A DNA stretch of 64,000 bases from Volvox africanus. Its lineage: Eukaryota > Chlorophyta > Chlorophyceae > Chlamydomonadales > Volvocaceae. Position numbers and translations under genes: made by a program. Location: the NCBI GenBank assembly GCA_030268105.1, contig BSDZ01000079.1, forward strand, positions 5,478,001-5,542,000, given 5' to 3'. The notes below the pieces were generated by a model. The model was not told the origin of the DNA. It did not search any database and saw nothing but the letters and a program-made list of their open reading frames with translations. Numbering within the stretch: the first letter of the stretch is position 1; each line of letters begins with the position of its first letter. Below, in pieces: positions 2,114 to 61,931 of this stretch.

Positions 2114-2937
2114 TGTTGTGCTACGGTTCATTTTCCGCCGACGCGTAGGTCGACGCGATCCTATGAGGCGAAGTGCTTTTGTGATGAACGCATTGCATAT
2201 GAATGAATCTGCATGATATAAATGTATTCGCATACATTTATATATGCATCTGGCATGTTGTCATTATCCATCGCGACATCGCATCATGGCAAATCCGCCT
2301 AGCATGCATGAATAACCGAAGCATTGAAGTGCGCATTATGCTCGTGCTACAAAACGATAAGTAATATTATCTGATATAATATTACTTCATTTAAGCACAC
2401 GTTGAGAGCGCCGCACTCGTCGCGATACATGCCCTGCAACCGGATATCGTTATCCGGACCCTTGCATCATGCGAATGCCGGAAAGGCTTATACGTTGTTA
2501 TACGTAGACATCGCCTAGACGCAGTAGGGTTGTCACATCTAGGATCGGCCTCCTGATGTGAATCGTACGGCACTGCGATGCTGCGAGTATAACAGATGCG
2601 AGGACGGCTAAGCTAGACAAGATATCCGATACCGGAGAACACTCGTGTGTTCTAAATTACTATTTCTATACACTATTCTACTTAGCCCGAGCTAAGCCTT
2701 AACTTCGCTAATCACCGCCGCGTGATGATTGCTTGCTTCCGGCGCTGACGGCGATTTCGTCCATTGCATCGTTCTGATCCGTAAAACTGTAAGTTATATC
2801 TCTCTTCGTCTTGAAGTCTTCCGCTGTCTCTGTTTGCTCTCGCTTGCCTTGCTGTACTTGCAAGTGCTCGCGCATCGGTGTCGATAGTCTCCAGACGTGC
2901 AGATACTTATGAGCAAACGCGAACGAGAGGTACAACA
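2114..2937 (+). repeat. 3' LTR of element A1
   Basis: An 824-bp LTR begins TGTTGTGC and ends GGTACAACA, giving TGTTGT/ACAACA terminal inverted repeats. It follows a purine-rich tract (about 2100-2110, GGGAGGGGGGAT) just after the pol stop, as expected for a 3' LTR. The reverse-oriented LTR at 10232-11064 matches it along its length with scattered differences. An antisense ORF inside it recurs in the other copy only because the DNA is shared. Confidence 0.85.
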
Positions 2938-4301
2938 TTTACATCCCTAATCAAGCTGACTTACGACGGGTCATCATGAAAGAGTATCATGATACCCCAT
3001 GCGCTGGCCACCGCGGCATTGACCGCACCAAACAAGCGATCGCACAAACGTACTGGTGGCCTGGACTAGATACTGACGTGAAGGCCTACGTCAAGTCTTG
3101 TCCTCAATGTCAGCATAACAAACCAACCAACACTAAGCCGGGTGGTTTGCTGCAGCCGCTCCCCATACCTTCTTCCGTGTGGGAGAGCATATCAATGGAT
3201 TTGATAACCCAGCTACCAACAACTCGCAATGGGCATGATGCGATCGTAGTGTTTGTGGACCGGCTGAGCAAAATGACGCACTTTGCTCCCACCCACACGA
3301 CCGCAGGAGCGGAAGAGTTGGCTCGCCTTTTTGTAGCCACTGTATTCCGGCAGCACGGCCTTCCAAAGAACATTATCTCTGACCGGGACCCACGTTTTAC
3401 AAGCAATTTCTGGAAGGAAATATTTCGCCTATTGGGCACCCACCTCCATATGAGCACAGCCTTCCATCCACAAACAGATGGACAAACAGAGCGAATGAAC
3501 CGCTTACTGGAAGAGACATTACGGCCCTATATCTCCCCTAATCAGGATGATTGGGATGATCACTTACCGTTGATTGAGTTTGCTATCAATAACTCCAAAC
3601 AACGTTCGACAGGTATGACACCATTTTTGCTTAATGGTGTCCAGCAACCGCGTGTGCCGGTTGACCTGCATATACCCTCGAAAGTGCCAGCTGCTGATGA
3701 GTACTCCACCATCATGCGCAAGCGATTGCAACTCGCTAAAACTTGTCTCCAGGCTGCGCAATCTAGACAAAAACAGGATGCTGACTCTTCTCGGCGCCCC
3801 GTGCGTTATGAGGTTGGGCAAAAAGTGCTGTTAAGTACCAAGAATATTAACCTTAAAAAACCTGGATCTAAGAAGCTGATGCCAAAATTCATCGGCCCAT
3901 ATACAGTTGTCGCTAATATCGGTGAAACAGCGGTAAAACTTGGCTTACCAGCTGAATCTCGCCTACACCCGGTCTTTCATGTATCACTCCTGAAACCATT
4001 CAAGGAGGACGCTCAGCGACAACCACCCTCACCACTCGTTATTGAGGGTGAACCATTCTACATGGTTGAAGCCATTGTAGATCATCGGGATGTCTCAATC
4101 CGTGGGGGCAGAGGTAAAACTCGTTGAGAGTACCTTATCAAGTGGGAAGGATATGATTCCACTCACAATACATATGAAACCGAGGCATCACTGAAAGAAT
4201 CAGATCCTCTGGTGGAAGCCATCGAGGAATATGAGCGAAGACTCAAAGCCAAAGGGCCGAGACCCACTGAGAAAGAAACCTCATCCAAGAGGAGACGGTG
4301 A
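2938..4301 (+). pseudogene. Ty3/gypsy integrase and chromodomain fragment (element D)
   Basis: Reading begins abruptly at the end of the A1 LTR, inside the integrase zinc-binding region, and stays in one frame (codons from 2940). It contains H..H then CPQCQHNK, the core motifs SMDL, ISDRDPRF and QTDGQTER, and then a chromodomain. A TGA at 4125-4127 cuts the chromodomain just before EYLIKWEGY. The same frame continues to a TGA at 4299-4301, so one CGA-to-TGA change is the simplest explanation. The protein differs clearly from A1, marking a separate family. The missing 5' part is explained by insertion of A1 into this pol. Confidence 0.88.
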
Positions 4302-8947: not shown

Positions 8948-9405
8948 TGTTGTACGCGGGTTTGATCACTGTTTACACCGAAGTAGACGGCAATCCATTT
9001 GAGCATTATGAAGCATGATATAATTATATTACCATGATATATTCGAGTATATCTAGCTAATCAGGCATGTCACATTATCATCTACCACATCGCGCTGTCG
9101 GTCAACATGTTTGACTCGAGGTTGATAATTAATGCGCGATCTCTCTGATGACATAATATTTCACGTAATAATACTTTAAATATTATTACCTCATCCTTGT
9201 CATAAACCATACGTGTATGCGAGAACGCGACGATCGCGATGGTTGGGTCGGCAACCGAATATCGATATTCGGACCTTCGCATATTACATACGTTGCATCC
9301 ATTAATATCACGGATTAAGCGATATTTAGAATAGTGCTACGAAGGTACTCACACTTGAGATCAGAATCCAGTGAGACCTGTACTGCACATCGGTATCGCG
9401 ACGTA
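8948..9405 (+). repeat. Truncated 3' LTR of element E
   Basis: After the pol stop there is a purine tract (GGGAGGGGGGATAG) and then TGTTGTACGCGGG, the same start type as the A family LTRs. The body is related to the A1 LTR but strongly diverged (shared AT-rich blocks and an ATATCGATATTCGGACC-like stretch). No ACAACA terminus is found. The sequence changes near 9405 into bacterial-looking DNA, so the LTR is cut short. The right limit is approximate. Confidence 0.6.
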
Positions 9406-9428
9406 AGGCAAGGAAATTAAAGCAAAAA

Positions 9429-9530
9429 TTCCAATTAAATGAATACAATCGGAGGTCTTGTGCTTGCTAAAATTGGAACCGTCCCGGAGAAAGGTGAAGT
9501 ATAGCTATTACTGAGGAAGTGACTGTAGAA
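9429..9530 (+). pseudogene. CorC/TlyC-type C-terminal domain fragment, bacterial
   Basis: Translation gives NTIGGLVLAKIGTVPEKGEV, a very close fit to the conserved start of the CorC/HlyC (TlyC) transporter-associated domain. It is preceded in another frame by FQLNEY and followed, after a one-base slip at about 9500, by AITEEVTVE. Both neighbours are where the family would have them, so two indels break the frame. The DNA is AT-rich, unlike the surrounding algal sequence. The left limit is uncertain (about 9410). It abuts the opposite-strand uvrC fragment at about 9530. Only a fragment of the domain is present and no function is expected. Confidence 0.55.
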
Positions 9531-9777
9531 TAAAATTTGTAGATATTTCATGACCGGTAAGTTTTTATCTAAAGTAAATACCTCTTGATTTGGCCTATGA
9601 AATTGTTCCCTCCCACTATTTCTATCTACTCCCTTAGACATGCATACAAATGGTATACTTAAGCTAAATTTTTCCAGTACTTGCTCTACTATTTTCATAT
9701 GCCCTGTGCCACCGTCTATTATCGTTAAATCAGGTAACCTATATCGCTCATTTCGTAACCTAGTAAGCCTTCTCCCT
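9531..9777 (-). pseudogene. uvrC: uvrC fragment (excinuclease ABC subunit C), bacterial, rickettsial type
   Basis: On the minus strand the frame reads LPDLTIIDGGTGHMKIVE, then IPFVCMSKGVDRN, GREQFHRPNQEVFTLDKN and LPVMKYLQIL. These are signature blocks of the C-terminal endonuclease half of UvrC (DGG and the KG-DR-GRE region). UvrC makes the two incisions in bacterial nucleotide excision repair and has no green-algal nuclear counterpart. The wording and AT-rich codons point to Rickettsiaceae. The match stops sharply at about 9530, where the sequence becomes the antisense of the TlyC-like fragment, and at about 9777, where an autotransporter-like frame takes over. It is an internal piece without start or end. 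Confidence 0.82.
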
Positions 9778-10123
9778 TGAATCTTACGGTCTCATAGGAA
9801 ACACCAAGGTTTGGGACAAAAAACAGTTTGCCTATTGGATAATAATAATCAGCTGTTAACGATCCCCCAAGTAGCTCCCCTTTTAACCTGAATCTGCTAT
9901 TGCCGTTAATCAAGGACTGATAATTCATTTTAGCGTCAACCTGTCCAAGCCTAGCCTCATAACTGACTACCAGACTTTCATTCATTTCTAAACTTCCGTA
10001 AAGGCTACCTATGAGTGATCTGATATCACTGCTAAACTTGCTACCGGCATTATTACTGATATTATTTATTACAGTTTCAGAAGTAGATTTTGGCTTAAGT
10101 TTTGTCTGGTTATGATTTAAAGC
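9778..10123 (-). pseudogene. Outer-membrane autotransporter beta-barrel-like fragment, bacterial
   Basis: An open minus-strand frame of about 115 codons starts near 10123 without a proper start. It contains alternating strand-like segments (ESLVVSYEARLG, DAKMNYQSLI, FRLKGELLGGSLTADYYYPI, LFFVPNLGVSYETVRF). This alternation and the GGSL-x-ADYYYP/VPNLGVSYE wording resemble C-terminal beta-domains of rickettsial surface-antigen autotransporters. The assignment is by pattern only. The frame runs on past 9777 to 9725, but from there the UvrC frame carries the recognisable protein. It is joined at the right to retroelement leader sequence. Confidence 0.5.
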
Positions 10124-10231
10124 AATAGCGGTTCTGGGAATTGTTCATCACTGGTACTGGCCATAGAAAGAACCTTCTTCCGATTTAACACAAAGAGACG
10201 GTTAGGCAACAAACCTGTCTCGATACCAAAT
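10124..10231 (-). mobile_element. Retroelement leader: primer-binding site and gag start, truncated
   Basis: Read on the minus strand, the sequence just beyond the LTR end is ATTTGGTATCGAGACAGG. It carries the same TGGTATCGAGAC block found directly after the family B 5' LTR (14963), so it is a likely tRNA primer-binding site. It continues to ATGGCCAGTACCAGTG (start at about 10166, minus strand), a short likely gag beginning, and breaks off at bacterial sequence. An LTR with a primer-binding site on this side and a pol 3' end on the other is shared by two element bodies. Confidence 0.55.
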
Positions 10232-11064
10232 TGTTGTACCTCTCCTTTGAGTTTGCTCATAGATATCTGCGGGTCTGAAGACTTTCGATACCAATGCGCG
10301 AGCACTTGCAAGTACAGCAAGGCTATCGAGAGCAAACAGAGACAGCAGAAGACTTCAAGACAAGAAGAAATGTAACTTACAATAATACAGACCGAAGCGA
10401 TGCAATGGATGTAATCGTCGTCAGCACCGGAAGCAAGCAATCATCACGCGGTGGTGGCAAGCGAAGTTCAGGCTTAGCTCGGGCTAAGTATGAAAGTGGT
10501 TAGCAATAATGATATTGAACACAGAAGTGTTCTCCAGTGTCAAAATGTCTTGCTTTGCTTAGCCGTCCTCGCATCTGTTATACTCGCAGCATCGCTACGC
10601 CGTACAATTCACACTAGGAGGCCGATCCTAAGTGTGACAACCCTACTGCGTATAGGCGATGTTCATGTATAACAACCGATAAGCCTTTCCGGCATTTGCA
10701 TGATGCAAGGGTCCGAATAACAATATTCGGTTGCAAGGCATGTATCGTGACGAGTGCGGAGTTCCTGACGTGTGCCATAATGATGTAATATTATATCAAA
10801 TAATATTACTTATCGCTCCATAGCATGAGCATCATGCGCGCTTTAATTATTCCGGATTTCATGCATGTTAGGCAGATCAGCCATGATGCGATGGGATATG
10901 TCGCAATGTATAATGGTAACATGCCAAACATATATAAATGTATGCAAATACATTTATGTTCATGCAAGATCATTCATATTCATCAATCATTCATCAAGTC
11001 AGCACATCACCTTGTAGCATCGCAATGACCTACGCATTGGCGGAAAACGAACCGTAGCACAACA
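10232..11064 (-). repeat. LTR of element A2
   Basis: An 833-bp LTR in reverse orientation (TGTTGTAC...ACAACA on the plus strand), homologous to 2114-2937. At its 11064 side it is preceded, in element orientation, by the purine tract and the end of pol (3' LTR position). At its 10232 side it is followed by a primer-binding site (5' LTR position). Confidence 0.82.
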
Positions 11065-11123
11065 ATTATCCCCCCTCTCGTATGCAGCGTCCTCGCTGCT
11101 TCCTACAGCATCGACTGCAGGGA

Positions 11124-11859
11124 TCATTGGGCTTGCGTGGCACGTTTGGGGGCTTCTTCTAGCAGAGGTCTCATGTCTGGTGAGAAGTTGCGTGCTGGTT
11201 CCCACGAGTTGTGCTCGCTGGTATACCCTGTCCACTTGACCAAGTACTCATGTACTGTCCGCTTACACCGGTGTCGGCCCACACGACTGCGCGCGATAAT
11301 CTAACACCCGCTCCACATCGTAAAACTTCTGTTTACCAGCGATTCAGGTCTCCGGAACTGGTTCAATCGCTGCAGGGGCGTTAGCAGGCTCAGGGACGGG
11401 TTCCGTACCACAATAAGGACGGACAAGTGATACGTGAAATGTGGGGTGAATGGTCATATCAGCGGGCAATGCAAGTTCAACAGCCACATTCCCGACCATG
11501 CGCACGACAGGATACGGACCAATCCAACGGGGTAAAAGTTTTTGGGATCCATCGGCCAAGGTGCGCAAATTCTTGGTGCTCAGCAACACAAGTTGCCCTT
11601 CCGAAAACGTCACATCCTGCTTGGATTTGTTGTAGTACTCTGTCGTTCGTTGCTGCACCGCGTCCAAACACGCCTTCGCGTCTGTGATACGGGACATAAA
11701 AGACTTGGCAAAGAGCTTAGCAGCAGGCACGTTCACTTCCAACTCACGCCACACGGGTAGCGCGGGATGAAACCCATAGTTAAGGAAGAACGGACTTTTG
11801 CCTGTAGAGCGGTTAACAGCATTGTTAAGCGCGAATTCTGCCGCAGTCAAATAGGTATC
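11124..11859 (-). pseudogene. Element A2 pol, C-terminal part (integrase end, chromodomain)
   Basis: Minus-strand reading continues the integrase from TAAEFALNNAVNR through to PVPET, nearly identical to A1. A TGG-to-TGA change ends the frame at 11344-11346 and a frameshift lies near 11290. The remaining chromodomain is recognisable to a TGA at 11124-11126. The upstream half of the same gene lies at 20570-21885, beyond the family B block inserted at 11860. Confidence 0.85.
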
Positions 11860-29035: not shown

Positions 29036-29068
<33 letters not shown>

Positions 29069-30408
29069 GTTAGTCTTTCGCCCCTATACCCAAGTCCGGA
29101 AAGCGATTTGCACGTCAGCACATCTACGAGCCTCCACCAGAGTTTCCTCTGGCTTCACCCTGCTCAGACATAGTTCACCATCTTTCGGGTCCCAACAGGT
29201 ATGCTCGCACTCAAACCTTTCGCAGAAACAACATGCAAAATAAGACTCACAAAAACGAAAAAGACGGTAAGGAGCTTAGATGCCACATTTATGATTGTAT
29301 GTATTGATGGTCGTCTTAAATCTCTATTTCATGATGTTTCATTTCGAGATTGTGCGCTTCCTCATTTCCAATTACTCGGTTCATGTTTTCTTATTATGTA
29401 TGGTGCCTTTGGATAGTACTACGGTCAATCTGCATTCTTATTCTGCTTCCATCAACCACCAACTGTCACCCGTGTGCACAGGTACATGTTAAGCATTGTG
29501 GTCAGGGAGTTTCCCTGGAGCACGCTTGGCCTATACTGCACTACTTCAAAGCGCAAGTAGGAGATATACTCATTTTTCAACCTGGACGGGATCCAGGATC
29601 CTTCTTCATGGAGATGATCAAGAAACCCGTGGAAGAACTATCAGTCAAAGCCAGCTATGCGTTGCCGCCGCCGCTGCCGCTGCCAGCGGCGGCCGTGACG
29701 GCAGCCGTGGAGGAAGCTGTGGTGGCGGAAGAGGCGACGACCGGTGCGGCTGAAGAGGCGCCGGTAATGGCCATAGCGGAGGAGATGGAGATGGAGATGG
29801 AGATGGCAACGGCGGCGGCAATTGCAGCAGCGGCAGGCAACGTGCGGACTGTGGCGGAGGCGACGGGCGGCGGCCAGTGGGACATGGAAAGCCAAGCCGC
29901 CGCCGCCGCCCTGACGACATGGTCCGCCTGTCATTGGGGCCTGATTGCGCCACCTTCGGAACCCATGCCAGTCTTTTCTTCGCTCTCGGAGGGATATTGT
30001 ACCTCCATGCTGCACCACATTGAGCAGCAGCAACCGCTACTGCTACCACCGCAACAGCAGCAGCTGCTGCTACAGATGTCACTTCCTCCACTGCCACCCC
30101 AGCAACAGCTGCTGCAACAACCACTGACGTCGCATCAACAACAAGAGCAGCAGTGCCAACAAGAACAGGAAGGGCAAGGTGCTGGCAGTGTTCGGTTGGC
30201 CTTACTGTCAGGGCGAAAGCGGCAGTGGCGAATGGCTCCATCACGGCATCGACGGCGACATGACGAGCAACACGAGGGGACCATTATATTCAATCGTCCG
30301 TACCCAGGTACGACATCACGACAACAACAAGCTTTCCGTGCATGTTCATTCTCTTCAAATTCTTAACATGCCTCAAATACTTCTCAGCCATCTCTCAGCC
30401 ATCTCTCA

Positions 30409-38503: not shown

Positions 38504-41500
38504 CTTGCCTCTGGGCCTGCATTTGCCGATCCAACATCCCTGAGCTCGGAGCCACAGCCGTTCCCAGCGCCACATCGCGGAGTTAGAGTGAAAGATGAGC
38601 CGAGAGGAGGGGAGGGCGTCACGGGCGTCGTCGGCGTGGGTCCCCTTCTTTGCGGCGAAGGGATCGCCACCGATCATAAGGCCCCATTGGCAGTGCGGAA
38701 TTCCCGCGGCTGTGGCTCTGGATGGCGCCCAGTGAATGTCCACAACATGCCGGAGCCCCTATCGGTGGTCGCAACGCAAGAAGCGCCGTCAGCATCAACG
38801 ACCGGGGGTGCAGTCACAACAACGACGCACGCGCCGGAGGCCAGGACTGGGCCTGTCCATGTAGCCCTTCCCGCTTCCTCTATCACCCACCCTCACGGCT
38901 ACGTGCCAGATGGGCCTCCTTCCTTGCGTCCAGGGGAGCTGCGAATCTGCGGACTCACCTTCCATCCCGAGCTGCGGGAGGCGGTGGAGCGGCTGCAGGC
39001 GGTTTGGATGCAGGGCTTGAGGGACCCGCTCGCTCGCACAGACCCCATCCGACACCAGATGGCGATTCTAGGGGTCGATCTCCCGCTGGAATCACCAGAT
39101 GGCAGTTGTCCCGCTGGCGGCGCCGCCGCCGCCGCCGCATTCCGTCGACACGGCCTGAAGCGGAACGTCATCTGCAACCGCCTAGCGCGCATGCTGGGCC
39201 TTATGGGTGAGGGCTGCGTCAGCGACAGCAAACTGCCGGAGGTCTGTCCTGCCTGGCTAGCGGACGTACGGCGCTGTGAAGATCCGGAACGCGGTGGATT
39301 CGGATTGGAGGCCGCCAACAGCCTGCAGGCCAATGTGGTCCTCGGCGTGCTGAGCGGCTACGTGCTGCCGGACGTGGCCCGTGTAGAGCTGATGAGTTAC
39401 GGGACCTGTGACCCACGGGTCACGGCGGAGATGCGGCGGAGAGCGGGCGAGGCAAGTGTGACTGCCTGGCAGTTTCTGATAGATGCCTTCATGGTGCCGT
39501 ACACCTGGCCGTCCGACGTGCAGCTTGAGCGGTCCCAGCACCACCAGCACCGAAGCATGTCGATAACAACGGCAACAACGTCAGTTGGAGCAGGTCAGCG
39601 AGGGTTGAGGCTAAGGCTCGGAGCTGGTAAAGGGAGGGAACAGAGGAGTGGCGTGTGTGTATGTGTATGTTTTCACGAACCTCGGTGTGTCCCATATTGC
39701 AAAATCCCCGTGTATGTCGGGGGCCTTATGATGGTAAGGGACCGTTCGGATCATTCGATCGTTCAGATGTCGCTCGAATCAACTGGCACCCTGTACGACA
39801 TGACAACTCCTGCCAAGGTCCCGCCCATGCCATTTTCCTCGACGCTCCACAGCCGCCCCCCAACCGCCTCAGTGGCAGGCCTGGGCAGCTGCCACACAGG
39901 ATCTGCCCCCGGCTTCAATATCAATGCTGGGGTACGGCAACCTGGCGGCGCTGGTGAATGACCCACGGGTCGAACCCAGGGAATGGCTGACGGGCAACGA
40001 CCTGGACTCTCCGGCCATTGCAGAAAAGGCGAACTGCGTGGTGTGTCGGCGAGAATAGTGTGTTGAGGCGCGCGCTGCGATGGAGACCACTAGAAGCTTA
40101 TTTAGGCAACTGCATTCGGTTTCGGCGGTTGGGCATGTGTTTATCAGAAAGCTGGGTCAGTGGATTACTAGGTTGTACTAGTACCCACGGCAAGGCAAAG
40201 ATGGTCAGTGGATAGATCAGATGTGCTAAGTGAGGGTTTAGCCGCCTATTCTAGGGTTTCTCCGGGAGACGGGGAGAGAAAGAAAGGGGCGGCGATGAGA
40301 GGGTGTGAGGATAGCGCAACCACCGCAGGTATTGTTTTAGCTCTACTATGAATTGATTATATATTATATATTATATTATATTATATTATATTATATTATA
40401 TTATATTATATTATATTATATTATATTATATTATATTATATTATATTATATTATATTATATTATATTATATTATATTATATTATATTATATTATATTATA
40501 TTATATTATATTATATTATATTATATTATATTATATTATATTATATTATATTATATTATATTATATTATATTATATTATATTATATTATATTATATTATA
40601 TTATATTATATTATATTATATTATATTATATTATATTATATTATATTATATTATATTATATTATATTATATTATATTTGATCGCATCTTTATGGATGTAA
40701 TTTGACCTAAAGGTTTAAACCAGGGTGGTTAGGGCCATTTGTAAGGCCCTTGTTGCCTCCGGGCGTCCATAGGTCTTTGTGCACACCTTGCTCTGCAGGT
40801 GCTGCCAGTCGCGGTGCGCGGTCTGGTCCTTCCCGTGATGGTGACGATGCGGCCCGTCAGCAAGGGCGAGCAGCTCTTGTACGACTACGGGTCGCAATGG
40901 TGGCGGCGGCTTATGGACGCTTGGGAAATGCTGGATGCGGAGTGCCTTACGCCGGCGCAGGCGCTGTGGGGCCTTAAGCCGTGCGAAGCGCCAGTCTCTG
41001 CCATGGCGGCGCCGACGCCGGCGGCGGCGGCGGTGGAGGCGACCTTCCATGCTGCCGCCGACATGATCGCTAACGACGTGCCATCCGCCATGTCGACTGA
41101 CAGTGTTGTGGTAGGTCCGGAGCTGTGCGCGGCATTGCCAGCGCTTCCGTTAACGCAGTTAACAGCGGCCGCAGAACTCAATACTGCCGAGTTTGCTGAC
41201 GGTAGCAGGCGGCCCCGCCGTAGCGTCCCCGACGACATCAGCGGGGCCGGGGGAAGCCATAGCAGCGACCGTGCTGCTGCTGCTGCAGCCGCCACCGCTG
41301 CGGCGCCTGCTGCCACGGATCGCAACAGCCGGCCACCGCCGTTGGCGGTGCCGCCATCTGAGTCCTTCTCTCACGGCGACTCGGCTGATCGCGCCATCCC
41401 TCTCGACAGAAATCAGGATCCGGGTCAAAGTCGATTTCGAGATCCAGATATGGATCGATATCAGTGGAGCGATCTTGGATCTGGGTCAAGACTCCTGGAC

Positions 41501-42988
41501 TGGGAAGGCCGGGAGATTCGGTCACGGGACGAGTGGCGTCGGTTTCGGAGCCCAAGTCGTGAGCGTGAGGGCAGGGGCAATCAATCACGGCACCTTTGGC
41601 CGTGGGACGAGTCGTCGCTGCCTGGGCCGTCGGATAACCGAGGCCAAAGGCGACACTCAATGGATCGAGAGGAGCCGGAGCAGGAGGGCTGGCGTCGCGA
41701 AGGGGACTCCACCAGCGGGCGCCGGCGAGATGGTTACAGGGATCGGGCTGGTCAGGGCTGCCCCAGGGAGGGGCCCCTCCCAAGCACGGAGCGACCCTTC
41801 CTTGGGCGACCGTTTCTGGACAACAGGTGCTATGAGCATCAACGAGAGATGCCGGATGAGCGGCAGCGCAGGCTGGAGCTCAGGCGCGGGTTGGGGCGGG
41901 GGTCAAACTATGATGTGGGTCAGCGCGATGTGGGCGCCGGACCGGAGGACCACTGGGGTAGGGTGCCGGGGTTTGATGACCGATATGTGCCAGATGGCGA
42001 TCCGCGAGGCAGAGGACGTGAACGCAGCGTGCGTGGAGATCCGCCGGCATCACGGACGACGGAGCAGTACAGTGACGGCGGGGTGAAGTGCCTAACTGTG
42101 GGCGGCGGCAACGCCACCGATGGAGACCATCAGAAGCGGCCAACACAGCCCCAACCCCAACTCCATCTCCGTCCCCAGCAACGACCTCAACCAAGTCCCC
42201 AGCCACAGCCACAACCCGGGCCTGAAGGTATGGGAGATGGCCGGAAAGGTGCTTGCGAAGTGGGGGGCAAAGAAGACCAGTTCTTCCCCTCCCTCTTCCC
42301 ACCTGGCTACCAAAAGGCAGGGAAAAGAGGCGACTGCGGCACTGGCGGAGGGGAGGGGTCTGGGCGGCTAGACCGCCAACGTACGCAGCTGGGTGGGACG
42401 ACGACTTCAGCGGTCACCGGCGGCCACCTCCTGGCGCAGATGGTCGGAGGGGAGAGCTCGGGGATTGGCTCGGATAACTTCTGGAGGGAACTTAGTAAGG
42501 CACTTAGGGAGGATGACGAAGTCGGAGGCGGCCGCGGCCGCGGCATGCTGCTTCTCGACACACGATGTTCGGCGGCACGATGCGAGGTTTCCGCCGATGC
42601 GGCGTCTTTGGGCATCGCCGGTGAAGAGGATGCCGCATTCGCCACCAGTCTATCGGTGACTGAGGGCCAGCCCCGGGCCAACGGCCAGCGTCCACCCAAG
42701 GCCTCTTACGGCGCGTCCACTGACCCACGGATCCGTGACGGTGTCGGCTCGTCTGGCGGTCAGCTGCAGGATGCCGTCAGAGGTTGCGATGCGATCCTTG
42801 GCGCCTGTACTGCAGCCGATGCGGCTGCTGCCTGCAACGGCCCCTCTGCAACCGCATTGGAAACTGCGAGAGGAGATGCCGAGTTGCAAGTCATGAAGGC
42901 GCGGGCCCGGCAGGTGGACTTCACGTGGCGTGTGCTTGTGCCGTACAGTACCACATCGCACGACAAGCCGTCTGGATCCACGGTTTAA
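35318..42988 (+). CDS. B3-like and SET-domain protein, putative histone lysine methyltransferase, five exons
   Basis: Proposed exons are 35318-35614, 35795-37021, 37949-39593, 39853-40040 and 40799-42988. All are phase-consistent and give about 1,848 aa. B3-like segments lie at about 10-125 (KEWRFVRI then GDIRDGTLVEFRHG), 165-282 (RWRLV, LAPGDKVAVTL) and 455-560 (SWQVWI, FGMATGDVILF). A SET domain spans about 949-1154: ERGGFGLEA start, GYGNLAALVNDP, NCV at an exon end joined to VLPVAVRG, then the closing GEQLLYDYGSQWW. NDP replaces the usual NHS. SET domains transfer methyl groups from S-adenosylmethionine to lysine. The C-terminal 700 residues are Arg, Asp and Gln-rich. Activity is inferred only, and the last exon may hide further introns. 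Confidence 0.65.
37133..37325. repeat. Long near-perfect inverted repeat in intron 2
   Basis: Left arm about 37133-37220 (ACGACGTGACGGTGGATTTA... to GTCGCGAGAGAT) and right arm about 37236-37325 are reverse complements with only a few mismatches over some 85 bases. They are separated by about 15 bases (CACAGCGGTGGTGC). It could be a foldback element, a small-RNA hairpin precursor, or an assembly palindrome. It lies in the intron 37022-37948 of the B3-SET gene. Confidence 0.9.
40369..40676. repeat. TTATA pentanucleotide array, about 61 units
   Basis: About 308 bp of almost uninterrupted (TTATA)n lie in intron 4 of the B3-SET gene, between the NCV-encoding exon and the exon that completes the SET domain. 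The open reading frames through it are artefacts. Confidence 0.97.
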
Positions 42989-57721: not shown

Positions 57722-60700
57722 AAACCCGACAAAATAAGTCTTAAGAAATCTATTATCCTGCATCGATTCAGGACAGAACTATGAAGTCATAGGCCGAACT
57801 TCGACGTAAAATATATATTAAATGTTGAAGGAGCTAGATGTGACAAAATGCTTGGATGTCCTTTGACAGTTTTCAACAGTGGAGTTGCATACCCCTTACC
57901 CCTGATCTATCCTGTATATTATATAAGGCTGTAGGGATATATGTACACTCAGGTACGACCTTAGTAAGGCCACCAAGGTGTCGGTGTGTGCCCCTTCCAT
58001 GTATGATAACCATGTATAGCTTCACTACTGCTAATGATGTACTTCCTTCAATGAAGGCATGCCACGCCACGCCAGTATGATGTGTGCAGCAAGTCGACCG
58101 ATGTGGCAAGTATGTAGATATCATGGGATGATGATGGAGAGATATCCATTGCTTGCTTTGAGAGTTGTTGAAAACAAGCAAGCCTTCTGGATTGGGGCTC
58201 GAGATTGTATTATTTATTTCCGAACAGGAAGGCTTATTTTCAACAACCCGAGAGGAAACAATGTAAATCATCTAATGATACCTACTTGCTGCATCAACTG
58301 ACCTGATGCACACATCATAACGGTGCACGCAGCAGCAGCAGCAGCAACACTAATTAGTCCGGTTATCGAGGCAGGGGAGGTTGGCTGCCCTCCCCCCTGC
58401 CCACAGGCAGGTGGTGATGCACATGATGATGAAGACCACTCGCGGATAGCATTTAACACATGCATCCATGTGCTGCTGTCAGCAGCGGCCCCAGTACCAG
58501 AACCACCTATCTAGAACTATCGATAGGTGGTTCTGGCCCGGACGGACGGGCCCTATATCTTAGTCCGTCAGTCCACACCCCTTGTAATACGTAATCCAAC
58601 AGGCGAGTCCAGTGAAACATCATATTACTGGAGTATATAGGGGAATGAAGAAGAAGATGATGATGATGATAATGCCTCCACCACCTTCTGGGATCGATTT
58701 CCGTCAATTAATAACGAATTTAAGTTCCGAACGTTACTGGGAAAATTTCACCGTTACATAAGAGGCAACGACGAGCGGTTGTGGTTGTATCTGGGGCGAG
58801 CAGTGGCTGCACGCATCTTTGGCATTACTCACATACTTAGCACGACGGTCGCCGTATCCACTGCTGCGCGGCGAGGATACGCCCGGACAGCGGGCTTATT
58901 CCCTTCCTCTGGTGGCGGCTACGCCCCTCAGATGCGTTGGGCTGCCCTACCGAACTGGAAGGAGCCCTGGCGGTGCACCCGCTTCCGAAATACATCTAGC
59001 TACAGATATATAAACATGGAGGATAAATATAATATGTGTGGTTCAATTTCGCAGAATACCAGAGATGCAGGCACGCAGTCAGTCGCAAAAGCGCAGAAAC
59101 AGGTGGCGGTGGTCACAGAAGCGAGCGAACAGGTTTAACAACGAAACACTTTGTGATAAATACTTAGTATTTTTTCATGCAGCTTACTTGTGCTTGTTTC
59201 ATTTTTTCGTTCATCTGACAGCAGCCGTCGTTATGTGACGCGTTACCAGCGCGGCTTGCATGCCGTACCCGTGACCATGGGTGAGTTGGTATAAGTGGCG
59301 ATTCATGGGCATCCACCTCCGACATAGCTGCCGCCATGCTGTCCACCTTCACTGACACCTTCTGTTCGCGACCGCCATAAACTCCGCCACTACTCGACCA
59401 TGCATAGGTCCAGCCCTGACCAACTTGGCACGGTATGGCGCCTACGTCGTACTCGCATCGTAAACTCTAGGCTCTCATCTGGGACATATTGAGAGCCACA
59501 ATACCGAACGCCACTAATATATGGATCATTTGAACTTCATTCCGTCATCGCAACAATGAGTTCAAACCGACTTCATATCCTTGCCGATGCAACAATCAGT
59601 TGATGCGAGTCTGTTCCGGGGTTTCGAACGACCGAGTTATGTGTCAATTATGCATCCGTTTTATGCGTCCAGGCAATAACCGCTTTTTAGAGCTTCGGAC
59701 TTCGATCTTCGGATGCATTGCCGGACAGTTGAAAATTAATTATAGATCGCTTGGCAGTTGCACCGTTGTCAGACGTTGTGCAGCAGTGCAAGTGACGCGA
59801 TGGATTGTGGCAACATAATAAACCCACATTTCCCCTCAATAAGGCTGGCCCTACCAGATCCCCTCTCAGGAATGCCTCTCCCGGGAGCCGCCATTTTCAT
59901 TTGCATGTATTGTTCCTGCTATACTAGGGAGACTGGCAGGTCGGTGACTGCAGCTGGGAGGGGAAACACCGCTGCGCCTCATTGATAACACAGGCAGGCA
60001 CTTCTGCAAGTGGCACTCAGGCCTGACTCCCCGCCTGCTTAAAGCCGGCCCCAGCAACACTTGATGGTTGCTCCGTGTGATACAATACGACTTCGGAACT
60101 GTTAACAGTTTTAGTCTCCGGTGTTCTAAAGCGCAGCGACGATGTCTCGACATTTGGCACTGACCACAAAGTATGCTATGGGCTTGAAATTCAGGAGATT
60201 AATGGTTTAAATTATAATACGTTAAGTATGTAAGGTGAGAAATGGCCCTAAAGTCGGAATATTAAAAAGGGGAGCCGACATGGGCAAAACGCGCCTTCGC
60301 CCCCAAACAACGAAGCGATAACGACACAAGAATTCCTACCGAGAATGACTTGTCTTGAACATCTTATCGTAACAGTTCAGGTGATGTAATAGACGTCCAG
60401 TACTCTGTCTGGCAAAAGGATCCAGCTGAGAATTAGTTCCCTAAGCTTATTTTGTACAGGATTGTAATACCTCAATTAAGTATGGAGTACTTATGTGTTA
60501 TATATATGGGACTTACAGCGGAGCTCGAACGGCCCTCGAATGCAGCGCACAACGCTGTGGGCCTTGTGTGGCCAGCTGGCTTCACTGGCTTGAAGGCCTC
60601 CAGTAGTACACATATGATGAATATAAAGGATATAGGACGTTAGAAGTCATGTTCAATCGGACCGCGAAATAAGGAATGGGTGGTTCGTGGGTGAACTGTC

Positions 60701-61276
60701 GCAACTAACTTCTGTGGGGCCGATCCCGCGCTGCATATTCCGCAACCCTTCCCCGAAAATCCGAAAGCACGTTAGCTCCAATCCTGTCAATGGTCGTCGA
60801 GGTTAGACGGGAAGCGAGGTATTCACGGTACAGTAAGGACCGACCCGGGCTCATAACGCTAACGGCAGCCTAGGAAACACCGTCCTGCACGGTTCCACAC
60901 GAGGAAGTGGACGGAAAAGTTTGGAATCCTTAACCATAGACGACGTCTGCGCCCAGATGTAGTAAAAGTATGCCAAGTATCACTTTGATTAAACTGGATT
61001 CCGCGATTGATTTTATTATAACGAAATCATTACAACGAAATTTAAATTCAATTTAAAACCTCCATAACATAATTAATGTCGTAATTTTGTATATATGACT
61101 TTAGCCCGTCAACTACATTACATGTATTTAAGGTTAACAAATACTCGTGTTAATTGGTTTATTGACCTAATTCGCTAAATCAGTTTGACAACAATGGTTT
61201 GGGCTCGTAGAATCCCCGATCAATATTCTTAACAATAATTCTGAGATGCTCGTCTTACTGCACTGCTGATGAATAA
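57722..61276. other. Gene-poor region
   Basis: An open stretch at about 58,722-59,138 (IRGNDERLWLYLGRAVAARIFG) may be a decayed mobile-element ORF, but no family is recognised. A hairpin lies at 58,497-58,536. From about 60,960 the DNA becomes clearly AT-rich. No RNA gene was recognised. Confidence 0.45.
58497..58536. repeat. Perfect 15-bp hairpin
   Basis: CCAGAACCACCTATC, a 10-base loop, then GATAGGTGGTTCTGG. It lies between repeats in gene-poor DNA. Confidence 0.85.
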
Positions 61277-61579
61277 TCATCGAAACTAGGAACTGTTTCT
61301 ACGCTAGGAAAAACCGCCTATAATCCCGAATTTGTTGAAAAAGTACTTCATTGTCAATTGACTGACGAGCAGGATGTACATCCAATAGATGTGTTTCTAT
61401 TTGCTTTTGGAATTATCATTTGGAGGCCGGATGAAAAGAAAGATGAGGAAAGATTAAGAAAAATCGGCTTTGAAGGAAATAATGGAAAGAAGCCCCATTC
61501 TGAATTTATTAATTTTGGTTACGTCGTTAATGAAAATAGAACATATTTTAACGAAGAAAAATACATCAGTATCCTTTGA
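61277..61579 (+). CDS. AT-rich ORF of possible bacterial origin
   Basis: The frame is open from 61277 to the TGA at 61577-61579 with no ATG before the middle, so it is probably a fragment. It encodes YNPEFVEKVL, HPIDVFLFAFGIIIW, a charged stretch (RPDEKKDEERLRKIGFEG) and NENRTYFNEEKY. Codons are AT-rich, unlike the algal genes here, and a second frame (61470-61652, ending NKTLKSFLK) overlaps its end as if one frameshift had split a longer gene. The style resembles Rickettsiales or similar intracellular bacteria. I cannot name a family. Confidence 0.35.
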   Translation, partial: SSKLGTVSTLGKTAYNPEFVEKVLHCQLTDEQDVHPIDVFLFAFGIIIWRPDEKKDEERLRKIGFEGNNGKKPHSEFINFGYVVNENRTYFNEEKYISIL

Positions 61580-61931
61580 AAAGATTCTACTTAAATCAAT
61601 ATCAAAAAAGCAATCAATCAAAAATAAAACATTGAAATCATTTTTAAAATAAAAAATTTCAATGTCAATTTCAATCCGAAAATCCGATTCCGCTCGCAAG
61701 GCTTCAGCGAGAGCCAGGAGGCTAGATAGGCCTGTGCGAATAAGTGACACGAGAAGATAATATGATATCGTAAAATCAGAGAGCAGGAAATATTCCATCT
61801 AAAAACGGAAGGAGAGAAGTCTCGCAGTGCTAATTTACGTCCTGCCTATATTCAATGAACACCTCATAAGAACGCAATCGATGATTCGGGCAAGGCCGAG
61901 TTGGTCTGGGCTTGACATAATTTGAAGTATA

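Follow-up and report, generated by a model that had tools for sequence, protein, structure and literature searches.

The closest described counterpart of the locus reported here is in Volvox carteri strain EVE, for which Kawafune et al. (2015; PMC4324946, extracts) reported a region of about 9 kb carrying 16S-murB-ddlB-ftsQ, with 412 bp of the 5′ end of 16S adjoining 768 bp of murB, followed by ddlB and ftsQ; according to the same extracts, rickettsial symbionts occur in only some green algal strains. Nuclear Wolbachia transfers (nuwts) in Brugia malayi total no less than 115.4 kb, covering 10.6% of the donor genome (PMC3849323, extracts), and mosaic organelle insertions in plants (numts, nupts, and numins) bear the hallmarks of end joining (PMC6215612, extracts). 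A literature search by titles and abstract openings, with most subscription journals and all preprints outside its scope, showed only Kawafune et al., among the papers listed, for rickettsial scraps in a volvocine nucleus and, within that same scope, no report of comparable scale in an alga. The words "horizontal," "nuclear," and "plasmid" are absent from the main text of a survey of Megaira (PMC10132079).

Here we describe bacterial DNA at 9404-10127 of the window (the whole 64,000-nucleotide stretch of DNA that was analyzed), where four pieces lie inside a nest of host retroelements. We assign a probability of roughly 0.87 to the reading that this is a nuclear integrant, in which four unlinked fragments of Megaira sealed a chromosome break within the nest. 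The V. carteri region resembles it in being Megaira-clade DNA in a volvocine nuclear genome, in consisting of truncated gene pieces by host repeats, and in joining unlinked donor genes (16S and murB); in contrast, the window holds ampG, corC, uvrC, and an autotransporter gene from a second replicon, at another locus and probably in another species, and genome-wide dispersal here stands against one region of ~9 kb there (PMC4324946, extracts). Brugia nuwts are likewise pieces of an alphaproteobacterial endosymbiont in a host genome (PMC3849323, extracts), whereas in our case the host is an alga, the donor is Megaira, two chromosomal donor blocks are represented to 31% and 24%, and the pieces are mostly of ~100 bp. 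As in numts, nupts, and numins, fragments of different replicons are joined at one site, although the donor here is bacterial and contributed both a chromosome and a second replicon (PMC6215612, extracts). The kind of event is thus already known from nuwts and numts, and it is the host and the scale that are unusual.

Four unlinked bacterial fragments at one site

A first-pass annotation had placed three bacterial-looking fragments side by side at 9410-10125. Their bacterial nature and their adjacency held up, but the pieces number four rather than three and span 9404-10127, the first 32 bp being ampG in antisense. The arrangement from the left host flank to the right is as follows.

8948-9404, plus strand: left host flank, the remaining 457 bp of a truncated 3′ LTR (full length ~815 bp) belonging to element "B," a chromodomain element of Ty3/gypsy type
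9404-9435, minus strand: piece 1, antisense, 32 bp from ampG of Megaira, which encodes a muropeptide MFS transporter; CP084576.1 337562-337531, 97% identity
9436-9442: filler, 7 nt, uncovered by either neighboring match
9443-9530, plus strand: piece 2, 88 bp from the 3′ part of corC (CorC_HlyC domain), sense, with one 1-bp deletion
9531-9773, minus strand: piece 3, 243 bp of uvrC, a portion of the RNase H domain, open frame, antisense
9774-10127, minus strand: piece 4, 354 bp of an autotransporter-type gene (portion of the beta-domain) from the 84-kb second replicon of Megaira, 97.5% identity, gapless
10128-10140: filler, 13 nt
10141-10231, minus strand: right host flank, the beginning of the internal region of an element in opposing orientation ("C"), interrupted at 10141
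10232-11064, minus strand: LTR of element C, with its ends placed by visual inspection

All three genes named in the annotation were recovered. The CorC-type piece on the plus strand aligns over 9443-9530 with the 3′ part of a Megaira ORF carrying CBS and CorC_HlyC domains, and it is 89% identical to a bin from lake Erken and 85% identical to Megaira. The uvrC piece, 85-88% identical to Megaira, gave a Pfam match to UvrC_RNaseH_dom (E 7.6e-15, within 9435-9791 on the minus strand), and the autotransporter beta-domain was matched at an E value of 1.9e-6 (within 9725-10144, minus strand). The donor ORF of piece 4 also contains a RickCE-like catalytic domain that is absent from the piece itself, and the 84-kb replicon on which this ORF lies appears, from its size, to be a plasmid.

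The fragments had further been described as truncated at both ends and partly frameshifted. Truncation is true of all four pieces, which are internal gene fragments cut within genes, and none contains the complete reading frame expected of a functional horizontally acquired gene. Frameshifting, in contrast, is confined to corC with its single 1-bp gap, as the alignments of uvrC and of the autotransporter piece are gapless and neither contains stops. Three of the donor places are at 337.5, 472.6, and 706 kb on the Megaira chromosome, and the fourth piece comes from the other replicon; with four donor places, the locus is a mosaic insertion in the sense of two or more nonadjacent donor fragments at one site. 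In the assembly, its five junctions comprise a 1-bp overlap with the LTR, the 7-nt filler, two joins that are blunt or almost so, and the 13-nt filler. A tandem-repeat scan of 9000-10700 found none.

Identity of the donor

Judged by sequence comparison, the donor is "Candidatus Megaira," in keeping with the rickettsial origin initially proposed for the fragments. We searched one genome per bacterial and archaeal species with the uvrC piece, and 39 loci were returned. The best match was the "Candidatus Megaira" endosymbiont of Mesostigma viride (82% protein identity), followed by an uncultured Rickettsiales bin from lake Erken (81%), and the remaining matches were to Rickettsia and other bacteria, mostly Rickettsiales, at no more than 68%. 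In a maximum likelihood tree (30 rows, 79 columns), the window uvrC grouped with Megaira and the Erken bin with support of 98/95; this endosymbiont clade was recovered by a tree for uvrC only, and the other pieces were placed by identity.

Chance matching is excluded because the blastn E values against Megaira were as low as 8e-170 for the autotransporter piece, 4e-72 for uvrC, and 7e-6 for ampG. We also ran a control with reversed Megaira sequence, for which the query set was the window plus 33 host loci. Real and reversed Megaira gave 12 versus 0 matches at a threshold of 1e-5, 12 versus 1 at 1e-3, and 16 versus 4 at 0.05.

Host flanks and the order of events

Host nuclear DNA lies on either side of the insert in the assembly, in the form of repeats of the host genome, and the annotated position within a retroelement nest was correct, with the LTR of element B on the left and the leader and LTR of element C on the right. 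Each flank is thus a host repeat broken off where the insert begins, with the left LTR stopping midway and the right leader cut at 10141. The element B LTR has at least 41 other host matches at 88-94% identity (best 40 of 2440 candidates). The LTR end could be aligned in 17 of 29 host loci, all 17 of which continue beyond the point at which the window copy is cut; the other 12 loci are in the opposite orientation, and a small deletion is present in the B LTR at locus L069. On the right, 10141-10231 reads as a primer-binding site, a leader, and the start of gag, with TGGTATCGAGAC being what we take to be the primer-binding site of element C. A host locus (L078) shares a 159-bp match across the LTR end and leader of element C at 90.6% identity, and 10229-11598 is an inverted copy of 2940-1581 (86%).

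Because its LTR is cut, element B would have been present before the break, which suggests that at the window locus the element predates it. At L069 (G000:C5), Megaira-like scraps occupy 144-362 and 1454-1504, and an LTR with a normal end begins at 1501, suggesting the reverse order, namely, that the element landed in or beside Megaira DNA. The nest and the Megaira scraps probably overlap in time.

The fragments had been called old passengers, a description that the divergence of the two longest pieces does not support. Between the window and Megaira, the 79 codons of uvrC differ mostly at synonymous positions (pS 0.498, pN 0.061, dN/dS 0.08), and dN/dS against the Erken bin is 0.13. From the dN/dS of 0.08 and the lack of stops, the bulk of the uvrC divergence appears to have arisen in bacteria, and post-insertion decay would amount to a few per cent at most. 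A three-way comparison found 6 residues peculiar to the window and 2 more that differ in all three sequences. The autotransporter piece, 97.5% identical to a sequenced Megaira replicon, carries 3 synonymous and 6 nonsynonymous changes in 117 codons, and its dN/dS of 0.54 fits slight decay after transfer or weak selection. We conclude that the insert at 9404-10127 is not clearly old.

These figures bear on an alternative order of events, in which bacterial DNA was already in place when LTR elements inserted next to it, and later deletions fused the truncated LTR and leader to truncated bacterial pieces, making the insertion older than the nest. A later deletion can indeed put a truncated LTR beside bacterial DNA, and at L069 a normal LTR end does adjoin a Megaira scrap. 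However, this order requires separate deletions on each side of the insert, and nonsynonymous change is small: residues particular to the window are only 6-8 of 79 in uvrC, and nonsynonymous changes in the autotransporter piece are 6 in 275 sites, both being partly attributable to evolution of the donor. In addition, B-family LTR copies, among the matches listed, differ from the window LTR by 6-12%. We therefore regard this order as unlikely.

Megaira scraps are dispersed through the assembly

The window belongs to a 6.2-Mb contig (G000:C76) of an assembly of 141 Mb in 126 contigs. Used as a query, the 716-bp stretch matched four other host loci; each shares 46-80 bp of these genes with it, and identities are 91-100%. 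At one of these loci (L002), the similarity runs past the end of corC into the adjoining DNA, for 303 bp against Megaira, and locus L004 has an additional 52 bp of a sodium/solute symporter gene.

Four 20-kb blocks of Megaira were used as wider queries, with the following results.

L099 (chosen for murB): at least 41 host matches (best 40 of 55 candidates) on at least 25 contigs
L118 (chosen for 16S): at least 42 host matches (best 40 of 44 candidates) on at least 27 contigs
L155 (chosen for the autotransporter): 33 host matches (30 candidates), including the window locus and L003, on 19 contigs
L134 (arbitrary): at least 46 host matches (best 40 of 90 candidates) on at least 18 contigs

Merging those of the at least 162 rows that lie within 10 kb of one another leaves at least 132 places, distributed over at least 36 contigs. 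The Megaira blocks have a G+C content of 33.6-37.4%, similar to that of two control blocks: a 19.3-kb block from Bacteroidetes (33.3% G+C) gave 0 host matches, and a 20-kb block from Rickettsia tamurae (31.7% G+C) gave 2, one of which was the window uvrC.

Such dispersal speaks to the concern that Megaira reads from the culture were mis-joined to algal contigs, producing an assembly chimera or contamination. The junctions are those of the assembly, and some pieces are 97-100% identical to sequenced Megaira, as this explanation would have it. Yet the pieces are short, with medians of 115, 89, and 105 bp in L099, L118, and L155, and they lie at the at least 132 merged places, many of which are in megabase contigs. 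With the longest single match being 3,030 bp (in block L155) across the 80 kb queried with the four blocks, no long Megaira stretch from these blocks was found in the assembly, and host matches range from 72 to 100% identity, unlike a single contaminant. A chimeric or contaminant origin is accordingly quite improbable.

We estimated the load from the donor side. Blocks L099 and L118, which are mainly single-copy and make up 2.8% of the Megaira chromosome, have 31% and 24% of their length represented in the host; together, their 83 rows account for 13,457 host bases against 40,000 of the donor. Extrapolated to the 1,448,425 bases of the chromosome, this gives a rough figure of about 487 kb (~0.5 Mb), or ~3,000 pieces of ~100 bp. 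The sum excludes the nonchromosomal block L155 and also L134, in which only 12 of the 46 rows (together 5,762 bases) fall within donor sequence that is single-copy; multicopy donor bases in Megaira number 865 in L118 and 7,849 in L134. The use of scored candidates makes the counts lower bounds, and rows at 72-77% identity that are maybe not Megaira have the opposite effect; some of these (16S, and L099 14254-14460, which appears twice) may be organelle or host homologues.

Pieces from unlinked blocks lay within 5 kb of each other in 7 pairs (three blocks, without L134), versus 0.32 expected under a uniform distribution. Permissive regions or later rearrangement may explain part of this clustering, and a single pair among the 7 (on C26, 76-77%) may not be Megaira DNA. 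Among the 29 host loci picked for the B LTR alone, scraps were detected at 1e-3 in one (L069) and in none of the other 28. On G000:C26, at ~1627696-1711254, later duplication of an insertion-bearing host block is likely, because the same chromosomal and second-replicon pieces of Megaira recur there, partly at a 10.4-kb spacing. Partial copies of Megaira 16S (94-99%) are found at four separate places, G000:C76:4636403, C11:304329, C86:1730863, and C91:2708187. The largest Megaira-like stretches, at G000:C23:2171493-2176250 and G000:C114:51094-55876, are ~4.4 kb each, 86-93% identical, and of the same layout; they are perhaps alternative haplotypes or the result of duplication.

A proposed model of break repair with symbiont DNA

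Under the reading we prefer, Megaira cells broken down within the alga would release DNA, short fragments of which would reach the nucleus, and end-joining repair of a double-strand break would capture several of them as filler. At the window locus, three chromosomal fragments and one from the second replicon would have been joined head to tail, and such a capture would leave joins that are blunt or overlap slightly, together with a handful of unexplained bases. Repeated many times, capture of this type would scatter scraps through the nuclear genome, and some of these loci were probably duplicated later along with host DNA, as on contig C26. That similar scraps occur at many places in the genome suggests that the alga repeatedly patched chromosome breaks with symbiont DNA, although five junctions at one locus, with no empty site seen, are insufficient to prove end joining.

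The position of the insert directly between two LTR-element sequences might instead point to capture by a retroelement, in which a gypsy reverse transcriptase switched templates onto bacterial RNA and the resulting chimera integrated. However, sense and antisense pieces are mixed, and the left LTR is cut midway rather than ending at its terminus, which makes this route very improbable.

Extending break repair with Megaira DNA to the whole genome, we hold, at slightly better than even odds, that the nucleus is a shredded archive of at least about one-quarter of the Megaira genome, built up over time by many separate captures from several Megaira lineages and replicons, with symbiont DNA serving as a standing filler in break repair as organelle DNA does elsewhere. 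Nuclear scraps are a fossil record from which one could learn which algal lineages once harbored Megaira, at what time they did so, and which of its lineages and replicons took part. With a complete donor genome available and scraps spanning 72-100% identity, the tempo at which endosymbiont DNA flows to the nucleus becomes measurable in an alga. In PCR or read screens, the scraps, 16S included, could also pass for infection, and in annotation they could be mistaken for horizontal gene transfer.

Comparison with the V. carteri insertion

The first-pass annotation suggested that the insert may be the published V. carteri insertion or a relative. That it is the strain EVE insertion, or descends from it, is almost certainly wrong: the donor clade (Megaira) is shared and the host looks volvocine, but the gene content differs, contradicting identity, and one V. 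carteri primer site is absent. The genes of the published cluster correspond in Megaira to L099:378-1331 (murB), 1335-2396 (ddl), and 2396-3187 (ftsQ) and to L118:8336-9835 (16S). None of the 41 L099 rows overlaps murB (best 40 of 55 candidates), and the one ddl row and the five for ftsQ are spread over six different contigs (again among the best 40 of 55). Rows for 16S (best 40 of 44 candidates) share a single contig, C21, with ddl/ftsQ rows, at a distance of 1.8 Mb. An arrangement of 16S, murB, ddlB, and ftsQ within ~9 kb was not found among the scored matches.

The terms "uvrC" and "autotransporter" are absent from the main text of the V. carteri report (PMC4324946). A 25-mer V. carteri primer had no site with up to 2 mismatches. 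A 21-mer regA primer (PMC1774577, extracts) had two matches, each with 2 mismatches, 2.1 kb apart, and its reversed control had 0. These primer results tentatively point to a volvocine alga that is probably a relative of V. carteri rather than that species. A protein-homology search with 40745-42988 found no match at E <= 0.001.

Other sequences in the window

Megaira-like DNA recurs toward the far end of the window.

57815-57854, plus strand: probable gyrB scrap, 40 bp, 92.5% identity, E 2e-7
60964-61591, plus strand: second insertion, comprising upstream DNA and the 5′ part of a DUF155 gene, 77% identity over 638 columns with 27 gap positions

The second insertion sits in an A+T-rich patch and is either more decayed than the insert at 9404-10127 or from a more distant donor. 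Because it is the more diverged of the two, there was probably more than one insertion event. The TATTA simple repeats at 40358-40678 were rejected as rickettsial, as their match to Megaira was due to low complexity and disappeared with the filter on. Rfam and tRNA scans of the whole window found no bacterial RNA. The sole Rfam match in the window was a 142-bp fragment of eukaryotic LSU rRNA at 29050-29191 on the minus strand (RF02543, E 2.4e-44).
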